From the NCBI RefSeq assembly GCF_000426345.1, contig NZ_AUFE01000006.1:124001-188000 (forward strand): a stretch of DNA of 64,000 nt. The letters run 5' to 3'. Numbering within the stretch: position 1 is the first letter of the stretch; each line of letters starts with the position of its first letter. Of this stretch, positions 1,333 through 6,324 are shown one piece after another. The notes below the pieces were generated by a model. That model saw only the letters and a program-made list of their open reading frames with translations, was not told the origin of the DNA and made no database searches. Source of the stretch: Cupriavidus phytohabitans. Its GTDB lineage: Bacteria > Pseudomonadota > Gammaproteobacteria > Burkholderiales > Burkholderiaceae. The translations under genes were made by a program, and so were the position numbers.

Positions 1333-2626
1333 CGCCGGCAAAGACGCTGAAGTAGTCCGGGAACGTCTTTGCCACGCAGCCTGGGTCGTTGATCCGCACT
1401 GGCAGCGGTCCGAATGCGGCCAGCGAGAAACACATCGCCATGCGATGGTCATCATAGGTGCCAATGCCGTCGGCCGGGGTCTGCCAGGCGGGCGGCGGCG
1501 TCACACGCAGATAGTCCGCCCCTTCTTCCACGACTGCGCCCAGCTTGCGCAGTTCCGTTGCCATCGCGGCGATCCGGTCGGTTTCCTTGACGCGCCAGCT
1601 GGCGATATTGGTCAGTGTCGTGGTGCCTTCGGCAAACAGCGCCGCCACCGCCAGCGTCATTGCCGCATCCGGGATGTGGTTGCAGTCCAGCTCGATGCCG
1701 TGCAGGCGGCCGTCTTCGCGTTCCGTACCGCGCACTTCGATCCAGTTGTCGCCGGCCATGATGTTAGCGCCCATGCGGTTGAGCGCATCGGCAAAGCGCA
1801 CGTCGCCCTGGATGCTGGACATGCCCACGCCCTCCACCCGCACCGGCCCGCCGCCGATTGCGCCGGCCGCCAGGAAATACGATGCCGAGGAGGCATCGCC
1901 CTCCACATAAATCTCGCCGGGCGACATGTAGGCCGCGCCCGCCGGTAGCACGAAGCGCTCCCAGCCCTGCCGCTCGACCTGGATGCCGAAGCGCGCCAGC
2001 AGGTTCAGCGTGATCTCGATATAGGGCTTGGAGATCAGCTCGCCCACCACCTCGATCTCGATCCGGCCGCTGTTGCTTTGCGCCATCGGAAGGCTCATCA
2101 GCAACGCGGTCAGGAACTGGCTCGACACATCGCCGCGCACGCGGATCGGCGCGTCGATGCGGATGCCGGCCGGCTGGATATGCAGCGGCGGGAAGCCTTC
2201 GTTGCCGAGGTAGTCGATCACCGCGCCGATCTGGCGGAGGCCGTCGACCAGGTCGCCGATCGGGCGCTCGTGCATGCGCGGCACGCCCGACAGCTTGTAG
2301 CTGCCTCCCTGCAGCGCCAGCGCTGCCGTCAGCGGGCGGATCGCCGTGCCGGCATTGCCCATGAACAGCTCGGCCGATTTGTTCGGGAAGTTCCCGCCGG
2401 CGCCGGTGACGATGTAGTCGGCGCCGTCCTGCCGCCATACCACGCCCAGCGTGCGCAGCGCCTGCAGCATCACGCGGGTGTCGTCGGAATCGAGCAGGTC
2501 GCGCACGCGGGTTTCGCCGCTGGCCAGCGCGGCCAGCAGCAGCACGCGGTTGGAGATGCTCTTCGAGCCCGGCAGCCGCACGGTGCCGGTGGCGCGGGTC
2601 AGGGGGCCTAGCGTCAGGTGTTCCAT
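1322..2626 (-). CDS. aroA: 3-phosphoshikimate 1-carboxyvinyltransferase (EPSP synthase)
   Basis: EPSP synthase (434 aa) joins phosphoenolpyruvate to shikimate-3-phosphate in the sixth step of the shikimate pathway. The start at 2626 gives MEHLTLGPL, the usual beginning; an in-frame ATG 36 bp upstream is less likely. Signature motifs are visible: [10 protein letters not shown] near residues 18-27 (shikimate-phosphate binding), [14 protein letters not shown] near residue 95 (PEP binding), and a C-terminal [10 protein letters not shown] segment. It sits between tyrA and cmk in a co-directional aromatic biosynthesis run. Its 3' end overlaps the opposing DUF2061 gene by 11 bp. Confidence 0.97.
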
Positions 2627-2731
2627 GGTCTCGGAGGGCGCCGGGGCGCCGCGGTAAGGCAAATTCAGCGATTCAGTCGCGGCGCGGCAGCGTGCCGCGC
2701 CCGCGCTGTCTTGTGGTTCGATACTACGGTT

Positions 2732-3631
2732 CTACGGTTCGATATGGTTGTTGCCCGCGGCGCGTTCTGCGCCCCAGGCCAGCCGGGTCTTGCTGGCGCG
2801 CGTGAAGATGCGTTCGAGCGCGTCGCCGTCGCCCTTCTCGATCTGTGTCTTCAGGTGCGCGAGCACCGACTGGTAGGTATTGAGTTCGCGCAACAACGCA
2901 TCACGGTTGGCCACGCAGATGTCGCGCCACATTTCCGGCGACGACGCCGCGATGCGCGTGAAATCGCGAAAGCCGCCACCGGCGAAATCCAGTTTCAACT
3001 CGGCGTCTTCGGCATTGGCCACCTGCGCCACCAGCGCGTACGACAGCACGTGCGGCAAGTGGCTGACCGACGCGAACACCGCGTCGTGCTGCACCGCCGA
3101 CATCACGTGGCATTGCGCGCCGGCGCTTTCCCACATCGCGCGGACGGCAGCGACATCATCGCGAGAATTCTCCTGCAATGGGCACAGCACGGTTTTCTTG
3201 CCGACGTAGAGGTCGGGGAGCGCCGCTTCCACGCCGTTGAGTTCGCGCCCGGCGATGGGGTGTGCCGGCACGAACTGCGCGGCCTTGTCGCCAAGCGCGG
3301 TCTTGGCCGCCATGATCACGTCGGACTTGGTGCTGCCCGCGTCGGTGACGATGGTGCCGGGCTGCAGGTGCGGCTCGAGCGCATGCAGCAGTGCGAAATT
3401 CTGCGCCACTGGCGTGCACAGCACGATCACGCTGGCGCCACGAGCAGCATCGGCCAGCGTCGCCGCTTCGTCGATCACGCCAAGGTCCAGCGCCTTCTGC
3501 AACGACGCGGGCGACCGGCCCACGCCGACCACCGTGCCCGCCACGCCGGCGCGCTTGAGCGCCAGCGCGAGCGAGCCGCCGATCAGGCCGACGCCGACAA
3601 TGACAACACGGGAAAAATGCAAAGCACTCAC
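2732..3631 (-). CDS. tyrA: Prephenate dehydrogenase
   Basis: NAD(P)-dependent prephenate dehydrogenase (299 aa) converts prephenate to 4-hydroxyphenylpyruvate in tyrosine synthesis. The N-terminal Rossmann motif GVGLIGGS lies at residues 13-20. HPIAGRELNGVEAA and the SHLPHVLSYAL segment are typical of the prephenate dehydrogenase fold. I prefer the GTG at 3629-3631 because it puts the Rossmann strand about 8 residues from the start; the ATG at 3679 would add 16 atypical residues. There is no fused chorismate mutase domain, which is instead fused to the dehydratase PheA. The 266-bp palindromic element lies between this gene and hisC upstream, so promoter or mRNA structure effects on tyrA are possible. 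Confidence 0.93.
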   Translation of the reverse strand: MSALHFSRVVIVGVGLIGGSLALALKRAGVAGTVVGVGRSPASLQKALDLGVIDEAATLADAARGASVIVLCTPVAQNFALLHALEPHLQPGTIVTDAGSTKSDVIMAAKTALGDKAAQFVPAHPIAGRELNGVEAALPDLYVGKKTVLCPLQENSRDDVAAVRAMWESAGAQCHVMSAVQHDAVFASVSHLPHVLSYALVAQVANAEDAELKLDFAGGGFRDFTRIAASSPEMWRDICVANRDALLRELNTYQSVLAHLKTQIEKGDGDALERIFTRASKTRLAWGAERAAGNNHIEP

Positions 3632-3740
3632 GATTTCAGGCCCGACGGGCAGTGGCTCGGCCGGGCCGAGCGATAGCAAAAAGGCACGGCGCCGGGCACA
3701 CCGGCCCGGCGCGAAACGCCGCGATTGTAGCGGGGCTCAA

Positions 3741-4006
3741 GAACCCGTTTCATAATGAAAAAGAGGCGCGAAGGCTGCTGCCGGGCCGCAGGGCTAGGCG
3801 TGGCCGACGCGGCGTGGTTATTCCACGCAAGGAGGCCACAACAACGCCATGCGGCCCGGCAGCAGCCTTCCCTTCGGGTTCAGGCCAGGCGCGGCGCATG
3901 CGTTGTTGCGGGCCTTGACCTTGGAATAACCAAGGCCGGCGGCCCACGCCTAGCCTGCGCCGCGCCTGGCCTGAACGCGTCCCCTTTTTCATTATGAAAC
4001 GGGTTC
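3741..4006. repeat. 266-bp element of interleaved inverted repeats
   Basis: A perfect 23-bp terminal inverted repeat (3741-3763 with 3984-4006) encloses further inverted repeats. B is 20 bp perfect (3771-3790 with 3850-3869). F is 19 bp perfect (3879-3897 with 3957-3975). C is 12 bp (3792-3803 with 3944-3955), D is 10 bp (3816-3825 with 3922-3931), and E is 9 bp (3839-3847 with 3900-3908). The order is A B C D E B' F E' D' C' F' A'. The loop of hairpin B therefore carries C-D-E, and the loop of hairpin F carries their complements. The last base of A' is the third base of the hisC stop codon. Short open frames inside on both strands look like by-products. No transposase and no clear target-site duplication are seen. 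It may be a MITE-like or structured-RNA repeat; the function is unknown. Confidence 0.9.
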
Positions 4007-5133
4007 TAAGCCAGCGCCCGCTCCAGTGCCGCAATGAAGGCAGCGTTTTCCTCGGGCAGGCCGATGGTCACGCGCAGCCAGCGCGGCAGGTTGTAGTTAC
4101 CCACCGGGCGCACGATCACGCCCTGCTTCAGCAAGGCCAGGTTGACGCGCGCACCGGCACCGTCGTCATCGCCGACGCGGACCAGCACGAAGTTGCCCGA
4201 CGATGGCACGTATTCCAGCCCGAGACGATCGCAGGCCTCGACCAGCTGCGCCTTGCCCGCGCGGTTCAGCTCCGCGCTGCGGCGCAGGAACTCGGCATCG
4301 CCCAGCGCGGCAATCGCCGCTGCCTGCGCCACGCTGTTGACATTGAACGGCTGGCGGATGCGGTTGAGCAGATCGGTCAATGCCGGCTGCGCCACCGCAT
4401 AGCCGATGCGCAGTCCCGCCAGGCCATACGCCTTGGAGAAGGTGCGCGAGACCATCAGGTTGGGATAGCGGCGCACCCACTCGATCGAATCGTATTGCTG
4501 ATCGGCATCCAGGTATTCGTTGTAGGCCTCGTCCAGCACGACCACCACGTTTGGAGGCACCACCCGCAGGAAGGCTTCGATCTGCGCAGCCGGCAGGAAG
4601 GTGCCGGTGGGGTTGTTGGGGTTGGCGATAAAGACCAGCCGCGTATCCGGCGCGATCGCAGCACCCATGGCATCGAGATCGTGGCCATAGGCGCGCGCAG
4701 GGACTTCAATGGCCCGTGCGCCGATCTCCTGTGTCGCCAGCGCATAGACCGCGAACGAGTACTCGGCATAGACGATCGACTGGCCGGGCTCGACCAGCGC
4801 ATGCGCCGCCAGCTCCAGAATATCGTTGCTGCCGTTGCCGAGCGTGAGCCAGTCGTCCGGCACGCCGAAACGCGCCGACAACGCGGCCTTCAGCGCAAAG
4901 CAGTTCGAATCGGGGTAGCGTCCCAGCTCAGCCACAGCGGCAGCGACGGCGCGCTGCGCGGAGGCCGGCATGCCCAGCGGGTTCTCGTTGGAGGCAAGCT
5001 TGATAATGCCGGCCTCGTCCAGCCCGAACTCGCGCGCGACTTCCGAAATCGGCTTGCCGGCCACATACGGCGAGATCGCCCGCACATAGTCCGGCCCGAA
5101 CACCGTGCCGCCCTGCTTACCCTGCTCCGCCAT
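4006..5133 (-). CDS. hisC: Histidinol-phosphate aminotransferase
   Basis: This PLP-dependent class I/II aminotransferase (375 aa) converts imidazole-acetol phosphate to histidinol phosphate. In this aromatic cluster it may also transaminate aromatic keto acids. Family motifs: NPNNPTG at residues 171-177, DEAY at 201-204, and SKAYGLAGLRIGY with the probable PLP lysine at 234. The PhhA/HisC-type N-terminus PYVAGKPISEVAREFG is present. It is spaced 42 bp from pheA and is probably cotranscribed. It is likely a second hisC copy (hisC2), because the main his operon is not here. Its TAG stop abuts the palindromic element at 3741-4006. Confidence 0.93.
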   Translation of the reverse strand: MAEQGKQGGTVFGPDYVRAISPYVAGKPISEVAREFGLDEAGIIKLASNENPLGMPASAQRAVAAAVAELGRYPDSNCFALKAALSARFGVPDDWLTLGNGSNDILELAAHALVEPGQSIVYAEYSFAVYALATQEIGARAIEVPARAYGHDLDAMGAAIAPDTRLVFIANPNNPTGTFLPAAQIEAFLRVVPPNVVVVLDEAYNEYLDADQQYDSIEWVRRYPNLMVSRTFSKAYGLAGLRIGYAVAQPALTDLLNRIRQPFNVNSVAQAAAIAALGDAEFLRRSAELNRAGKAQLVEACDRLGLEYVPSSGNFVLVRVGDDDGAGARVNLALLKQGVIVRPVGNYNLPRWLRVTIGLPEENAAFIAALERALA

Positions 5134-5159
5134 CTCGTCTCCTTGCTACGGTTGCGCTG

Positions 5160-5185
5160 ACCTTACTTGTTCACCTTACTTGCTC
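5160..5185. repeat. 13-bp tandem duplication at the pheA stop codon
   Basis: ACCTTACTTG(T/C)TC occurs twice in tandem (5160-5172, 5173-5185; 12 of 13 positions identical). Read on the minus strand, each copy carries AAGTAAGG. The second copy contains the real pheA stop (TAA, 5176-5178); the first puts another TAA 13 bp downstream in a shifted frame. Confidence 0.8.
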
Positions 5186-6324
5186 GACGGATACGAGCCC
5201 AGCACCTTCAGATAGGCCGCGTTGCGGCGCAGTTCGTCGATGGCACGCGCCACCGCCGGCTCATTTTGGTGCCCTTCGACGTCGACGTAGAAGTAGTACT
5301 CCCAGGCACCGCTGCGCGCCGGACGCGATTCGAAGCGGCACATCGACACGCCGTTCTCGGCCAGCGGCGCGAGCAGCTGGTACACCGCGCCGGCCTTGTT
5401 CGGCACCGACAGGATCAATGAGGTCTGGTCGCTGCCCGATGGCTCGGTCTCGTAGCGGCCGATCACGGCAAAACGCGTGCGGTTGTGCGGATCGTCCTGG
5501 ATATGCGTGCGCACCAGGTGCAGGTGGTAGCGGTTGGCGGCGGATTCGCCGGCGATCGCCGCGACGGTCGGATCCTCGCTGGCCATGCGCGCCGCTTCGG
5601 CATTGCTCGATACCGCCTGGCGCTCCAGGTGCGGATAGTTGGCGGTCAGCCAGTGCTGGCACTGCGCCAGCGCCTGCGCGTGCGCGCGCACCACGGTCAC
5701 GCCCTTCATGTCGGGCGTGGATGCCATCAGGTTGTGGTGAACCTTCAGCGCGATCTCGCCGCTGATCTTCAGCGACGTCTGCAGGAACAGATCGAGCGTG
5801 CGCGACACGGCGCCCTCGGTCGAATTTTCCACCGGCACCACGCCGTACTCGACAGTACCCGCCTCCACCGCGCGGAACACTTCGTCGATGCTGGGGCAAG
5901 GCACGCCGCTCACTTCATGGCCGAAGTGCGCAAACAGCGCCTGCTCGGAGAAGGTGCCGGCCGGGCCCAGGAAAGCGACCTCCAGCGGCTTCTCCAGCCC
6001 GCGGCAGGCGGACATCACCTCGCGCCAGATCGCTGCCACGCTCTCGCCCAGCAGCGGACCCGGGTTGGCGCCCTGCACCTTGCGGATGACCTGAAGTTCG
6101 CGCTCGGGGCGGAACACCGGCGCGCCATACTTTTTCTTGACCTCGCCGACCTCGAGCGCGAGCCTGGCGCGCTGGTTCAGCATGGCCAGCAGTTCGCGGT
6201 CCACCGTGTCGATCTGCTCGCGCAGCGGCGCCAGCTCGACCGACAGGTTGCGTTCGGCCTCGCTCTGGTGATTGCCGTTGGGCTGCGTCTCCTCGTGCGC
6301 AGGGGTGCTGTCTTGACTTGTCAT
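5176..6324 (-). CDS. pheA: Bifunctional chorismate mutase/prephenate dehydratase (P-protein)
   Basis: This cytosolic P-protein (382 aa) rearranges chorismate to prephenate and then dehydrates it to phenylpyruvate for phenylalanine synthesis. The start at 6324 gives MTSQDSTPAHEE. The chorismate mutase domain covers about residues 25-110 (LREQIDTVDRELLAMLNQRA and the VGEVKKKYGAPVF helix). The dehydratase follows from about 115 (FLGPAGTFSEQA, PVENSTEGAV, and the catalytic TRF motif within HNRTRFAVIG). The C-terminal ACT domain (about 300-375) includes ESRP, which normally binds phenylalanine, so allosteric feedback is expected. It is preceded by serC and followed by hisC. Confidence 0.97.
   Translation of the reverse strand: MTSQDSTPAHEETQPNGNHQSEAERNLSVELAPLREQIDTVDRELLAMLNQRARLALEVGEVKKKYGAPVFRPERELQVIRKVQGANPGPLLGESVAAIWREVMSACRGLEKPLEVAFLGPAGTFSEQALFAHFGHEVSGVPCPSIDEVFRAVEAGTVEYGVVPVENSTEGAVSRTLDLFLQTSLKISGEIALKVHHNLMASTPDMKGVTVVRAHAQALAQCQHWLTANYPHLERQAVSSNAEAARMASEDPTVAAIAGESAANRYHLHLVRTHIQDDPHNRTRFAVIGRYETEPSGSDQTSLILSVPNKAGAVYQLLAPLAENGVSMCRFESRPARSGAWEYYFYVDVEGHQNEPAVARAIDELRRNAAYLKVLGSYPSSK

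Follow-up and report, generated by a model that had tools for sequence, protein, structure and literature searches.

What kind of DNA lies between hisC and the neighbouring tyrA-like gene of Cupriavidus phytohabitans? At this junction the window (the whole stretch of 64,000 nucleotides that was analysed) carries an interleaved array of inverted repeats (Table 1). The initial annotation saw in it two hairpins within a perfect terminal inverted repeat (TIR), with complementary loops that could make a two-state switch, and took it for a non-autonomous mobile or structural element inserted at the hisC stop codon.

Table 1. The element at the hisC-tyrA junction and its surroundings (positions in the window)
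Feature	Position	Strand	Basis or remark
Whole element	3741-4006		266 bp, between the tyrA-like gene and hisC
Left TIR, 23 bp, no mismatch	3741-3763	+	Sequence
Right TIR, 23 bp	3984-4006	-	End base is the final base of the hisC stop codon TAG
Hairpin unit 1 (hairpin B of the initial annotation, with C-D-E)	3767-3873	+	R2, 110.9 bits, E 7.8e-24; fold
Hairpin unit 2 (hairpin F of the initial annotation)	3875-3979	-	R2, 96.3 bits, E 2.3e-20; alignment to unit 1
CCCTTCGGG, junction of units 1 and 2	3870-3878	.	Could form a very short third arm
CAA, left flank	3738-3740	.	Possible altered target duplicate; inexact repeat of right flank
TAA, right flank	4007-4009	.	Possible target duplicate
hisC (histidinol-phosphate transaminase)	4006-5133	-	TIGR01141, E 2.3e-105, passes cut-off; terminates within right TIR
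tyrA-like gene	2732-3679	-	Prephenate dehydrogenase models, every one under its curated cut-off; start uncertain

The anatomy described in the initial annotation was borne out. The 23-bp TIR, GAACCCGTTTCATAATGAAAAAG, was perfect, and one further base pair (3740/4007) continues it. Hairpin B pairs 3770-3794 with 3846-3870 (25 nt, 96% complementary), hairpin F pairs 3875-3901 with 3953-3979 (27 nt, 93% complementary), and C, D and E were present as complementary parts of the loops. The predicted fold of the element had an energy of -200.4 kcal/mol compared with a mean of -113.1 for shuffled sequences, none of 200 shuffles being as stable. When unit 2 was reverse-complemented it aligned with unit 1 as a diverged copy (80 identities, score 92; the maximum among 300 shuffles, which preserved single-base content only, was 52). 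No second element was found in the 64-kb window with the unit model R2; a further match had an E value of 0.69 and was not credible.

The same genome carried a second copy, 93% identical. The initial annotation had proposed a search for further copies, and matches were obtained in 10 of 60 genomes of the genus at E<=0.001, the window's own genome counted, and in 7 of 60 at the stricter limit of E<=1e-20. A TIR scan across the named genomes returned 26 stretches, all from Cupriavidus. Ten copies, distributed over six Cupriavidus genomes, were full-length. The others included 178-bp copies with one hairpin, copies of about 52 bp containing barely more than the two TIR arms, and 27-bp palindromes. 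Three of the 178-bp derivatives (L008, L015 and L020), with the first hairpin complete and the other truncated, had exact TTA or TAA flanks. The near-perfect or perfect 27-bp palindromes at G055:C24:25453-25479 and G029:C3:80744-80770 correspond to the Cupriavidus TIR alone, and have TTA/TAA-like flanks. Among plasmid and phage sequences the window element had no blastn match at E<=1e-5.

An empty site was sought among 30 hisC-junction loci, and only the window's own locus contained the element. The four closest loci (L055-L058, 92-96% identical to the query) read GGGGCTTACGCC, whereas the window reads GGGGCTCAA followed by the element and TAAGCC. The flanks in the window are compatible with a TAA target altered at one base, as an inexact repeat. 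Exact TTA/TTA or TAA/TAA flanks were found at three of the ten full-length Cupriavidus copies and at five shorter copies. The empty site, the dispersed copies, the size variants and the TTA/TAA flanks support the view that a non-autonomous mobile element had inserted at the hisC stop codon.

A possible targeting of stop codons was assessed at 289 flanks. Long open reading frames ended at the junction in 57 cases, within the element or beyond it in 117 and shortly before it in 51; 64 flanks had none. The 57 are one third of the 174 reading frames that reach the junction, which is what would be expected if the element end supplies TAG in one frame. Judged from sequence, the most likely status of the element at hisC is that of a neutral passenger, the stop codon there remaining functional.

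The window element is a member of a dispersed family. The unit model R1 matched 24 of 249 genomes of the family Burkholderiaceae, in 7 of 25 genera (E<=0.01). The broader model R2 matched 137 of 349 genomes of the order, in 70 of 147 genera (E<=0.001), and 77 of 398 genomes of the phylum, in 43 of 212 genera (E<=0.0001). Within this last set of 77 genomes, 23 belonged to the same class but lay outside the order and 41 to other classes. The E values of both models are rough, sequences used for model building match by construction, and copy numbers in the three scans are lower bounds (at least so many), few candidates having been scored per genome and under strict filters. DNA matches in named records came from Burkholderia stagnalis, B. 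cenocepacia and Caballeronia, and from Variovorax over a quarter of the query; both units were found in Azotobacter chroococcum pAcX50f (L311).

The same architecture recurred across the phylum: a long TIR around two hairpin units of about 107 bp, mostly in head-to-head orientation, each unit being a diverged copy of the other. Among 94 unit placements at 93 loci, 86 were head to head, three were direct (L200, L208 and L261) and five were single; neighbouring units were one base apart in 81 of 89 cases. Long TIRs were found at 115 of 119 loci, the remaining four (L232, L250, L264 and L279) being excluded, and at 22 of 23 phylum-level loci. As the TIRs were located by an inverted-repeat search beside model-located units, their perfection is partly ascertained. 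The outer ends were diverse, with 73 different ten-base strings in 146 elements (147 with one identical duplicate), some of these strings being frame shifts of each other or misplaced ends. Some element boundaries are off by a few bases or more, as in the 418-bp L229. Three short elements of 179-187 bp (L145, L161 and L303) contain a single full unit. In L159, L160 and L162 (289-293 bp) the unit junction is extended and could fold as a third hairpin. L153, in which two units lie 1.6 kb apart, was considered as a candidate autonomous element and ruled out, for it consists of two separate copies (3298-3577 and 4925-5195), in inverted order on either side of a gene whose translation is aminotransferase-like.

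Conservation of the unit was examined by comparing columns over 150 units. Mean identity was 0.55 in the outer stem, 0.69 in inner paired and 0.68 in inner unpaired positions. The two A residues of the gcaAC motif, which are internal-loop bases, had identities of 0.85 and 0.99. Compensating changes were seen at 18 of 35 pairs in an alignment of 26 units and at 34 of 38 pairs in 46 units from seven genera; many of these are contrasts between first and second units, so the events are fewer than the cells.

The initial annotation had also suggested that the two hairpins could kiss through their loops, or that C-D-E could pair in a rival fold, and that the element perhaps regulates the downstream tyrA. 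The C-D-E stretches of the window are indeed complementary, and across ten copies 97.5% of the C-D-E cells pair. Complementarity of this kind arises, however, because the units are inverted duplicates with common loop sequence. Compensatory changes, the check proposed for both folds, supported the local hairpins, with 15 double-changed pairs, a number reached by none of 500 shuffles. The C-D-E helix had only 3, which was reached by 105 of 500 shuffles; 27 of the 500 shuffles equalled its covariation score and 32 its number of paired cells, and a trace of coupling is possible. In 100 elements from clusters of at least two members, an element's own loops scored 11.31 and swapped loops 11.09 (51 above, 34 below and 15 equal). 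Over all elements the own-loop score was 10.8, compared with 9.32 for loops swapped across clusters and 6.2 for shuffled loops. Cluster means above 19 occurred in 2 of 46 clusters, one of which has ten members, the size of the Cupriavidus set. In the three direct-unit elements there is no reason to expect loop complementarity. With C-D-E lacking clear covariation and own loops scoring only slightly above swapped ones, the switch was not supported, and we consider a two-state switch that regulates the neighbouring gene very improbable.

Is the fold kept as RNA or as DNA? A helix kept for its RNA is expected to tolerate G.U and to reject A.C on the transcribed strand. Arm changes in the TIR were counted in 48 independent sister pairs, without elements shorter than 240 bp. 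Of the differences 145 were matched in the other arm and 86 were unmatched (33 in the left arm only, 53 in the right only). Leftover mispairs, counted once per cluster, were 39 G.T, 38 A.C and 33 others in the TIR, 38 G.T, 36 A.C and 57 others in second units, and 43 G.T, 26 A.C and 39 others in first units. L298, which has a poor TIR, was excluded from both counts. A tRNA control for the comparison of G.T with A.C found 9 tRNAs, of which 0 were usable. Since the TIR arms change together with no consistent excess of G.T over A.C, maintenance at the DNA level is favoured, first units being a partial exception.

These numbers bear on the proposal that the element is transcribed and conserved for an RNA fold, such as a terminator, an RNase III site or a small RNA. 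The fold is very stable, its covariation is extensive, the mispairs of unit 1 lean towards G.T, and MITE transcripts have been described as stable stem-loops in the portion of PMC10969869 considered here. Against an RNA role, the G.T excess is missing from the TIR and from unit 2, and 86 of 94 placements put the units on opposite strands, so that one of them is antisense in any transcript. A search with Rfam models of window positions 2500-5500 and 18 further loci assigned no family at gathering score to the elements. The only known RNA models to appear at the elements were microRNA precursors far under the gathering score (MIR5084 in the window, mir-341 and MIR5534 in the loci), and these were rejected. 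We regard a structured RNA as unlikely.

The matched-arm data fit selection on folded DNA and copying from arm to arm alike. In the latter case the mobile element would be the same, but its fold would be functionless. One arm would be copied onto the other through strand switching or through repair of the folded DNA, and pairing would be a mutational by-product. Matched arm changes and the balance of G.T and A.C mispairs left in the TIR agree with this, as does the inner TIR, whose sequence is highly variable with complementarity retained. Mutation bias alone, on the other hand, predicts neither the conservation of the two A residues of gcaAC nor the persistence of the unit across classes and TIR types. 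A functionless fold is a possibility to be taken seriously, if on the whole a doubtful one.

Evidence on the mode of movement came from one genome, G452. There pairs of a common TIR occurred at two spacings, 270-272 bp (22 pairs) and 859 bp (11 pairs), TA flanks included. The five 270-272-bp copies that were read (L192-L196) have TA on either side. Five of the 859-bp copies (L212-L214, L216 and L217) were identical to the first at 857-859 of 859 positions and represent a TA-flanked insertion sequence (IS); L215 gave no result that was used. This IS contains two overlapping open reading frames matching DUF4096, a DDE domain and the IS5-family model NF033580. Element and IS have GAACCCATTTCATAAATAG in common at one end (19 bp), and the other IS end differs by one or two changes. 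The TIR sharing in G452 is direct evidence for mobilisation in trans, in one lineage.

An autonomous copy with the Cupriavidus TIR was not present among the matches listed for 10 genomes, nor, with a shorter TIR, among those listed for 60 Cupriavidus genomes; draft contigs could hide one in either set. A protein search for the partner IS in 8 Cupriavidus genomes (second reading frame only, run without a positive control) was negative, and no partner IS was seen in G456 or G515.

At the right end of the G452 IS (the same five copies), GGGTCTGTTAAC lies just within the outer repeat, after TA, as a nested end. Other elements, L263 among them, have this sequence as their outer end. This arrangement of sequences suggests that ends may be gained by nested insertion.

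The dispersed copies, the empty site, the TIR sharing in G452, the conserved fold and the co-changing arms are observed. As to what the element is, we think it probably a MITE-type non-autonomous transposon with a conserved two-hairpin core, which inserts at TA-containing targets and is moved in trans by a transposase most likely of the IS5 family. The transposase would cut the TIR, and the Cupriavidus copies would have been moved by one of the same kind. The interior would be a conserved core with no visible remnant of the IS: two units of about 107 bp, as a rule head to head and a single base apart, with the long TIR stem closing the structure. As a single strand it could fold into a Y or a cloverleaf. 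Presumably the fold is maintained in the DNA itself. Movement may require folded single-stranded or cruciform DNA, or else the correction of mispairs in folded DNA may make one arm a copy of the other.

A wider reading is offered tentatively. The elements may be phylum-wide DNA parasites with a heritable folded core, whose arms drift under enforced pairing and which switch transposases by acquiring new outer ends. The core would consist of the two hairpins of about 107 bp and the TIR stem, and recognition or repair would act on it as folded DNA. One route to new ends would be a nested insertion into the central TA of a solo-TIR palindrome, a possibility suggested by the nested IS end in G452. 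Repeats of many proteobacterial genera would become one superfamily defined by shape. They would offer natural replicates for studying Y or cruciform folding of bacterial DNA in vivo and the persistence of perfect long inverted repeats, and an example of a non-coding element whose core outlasts the turnover of its transposase-binding ends.

With regard to known systems, the element is 266 bp long, repeated and TIR-bounded, and was judged non-coding from its length and structure. These are features of prokaryotic MITEs, which, in the portion of PMC10969869 considered, are short, non-coding, TIR-bounded, repeated and foldable, take their transposase from an IS and are usually described as derived from one IS. 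In contrast to MITEs, the core of the present element is defined by shape and conserved across TIR types and the phylum.

Correia elements have IS1106 as their partner IS. In the excerpts of PMC5039591 and PMC2649163 used here, these repeats of Neisseria are TIR-bounded, 69-151 bp long and near genes; they resemble the present element in being TIR-bounded, short and near genes, and in similar core motifs (AAGGCG, GCAACGC). The 26-bp Correia repeat was absent from the ends of the window element, whose TIR differs from published repeats beginning tatagtggattaa (PMC5039591, in part). Six stretches containing Correia copies gave no unit with R2. The similarity of the cores was weak: the best score was reached by 42 of 200 shuffles, the mean of the top ten by 8 and the overall mean by 3. 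The Correia copies L314-L319 have short motifs in common with the units, again with weak similarity. Descent from Correia elements is suggestive only.

Integron attC sites are variable in sequence and conserved in folded shape, and are recognised as folded DNA; the resemblance is one of principle only.

REPs, in the part of PMC3733652 consulted, are 20-40 bp long and tagged with GTAG/CGTC, and like the present units they occur as repeated hairpins in inverted pairs. If the element were REPIN-like and mobilised by a RAYT (tyrosine) transposase, it would likewise be repeated and intergenic. However, the units of about 107 bp, the long TIRs and the IS5-family link, with a TIR common to element and DDE-type IS, set the element apart from REPs and REPINs, and we give this alternative hardly any credence.

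A 2008 catalogue, as far as excerpted (PMC2267715), contains repeated double-hairpin families such as Pae-1, including some of Pseudomonas and Bordetella. They too are double hairpins, known here by description rather than by sequence, and some members of the superfamily may already have been catalogued there species by species. The initial annotation knew of no described family with this topology, and among the open-licence papers considered, in part as excerpts and with the Pae-1-type families compared by description only, no matching description was seen. We class the element as MITE-like, apart from Correia elements and REPINs, and as belonging to a shape-defined family that is apparently unnamed.
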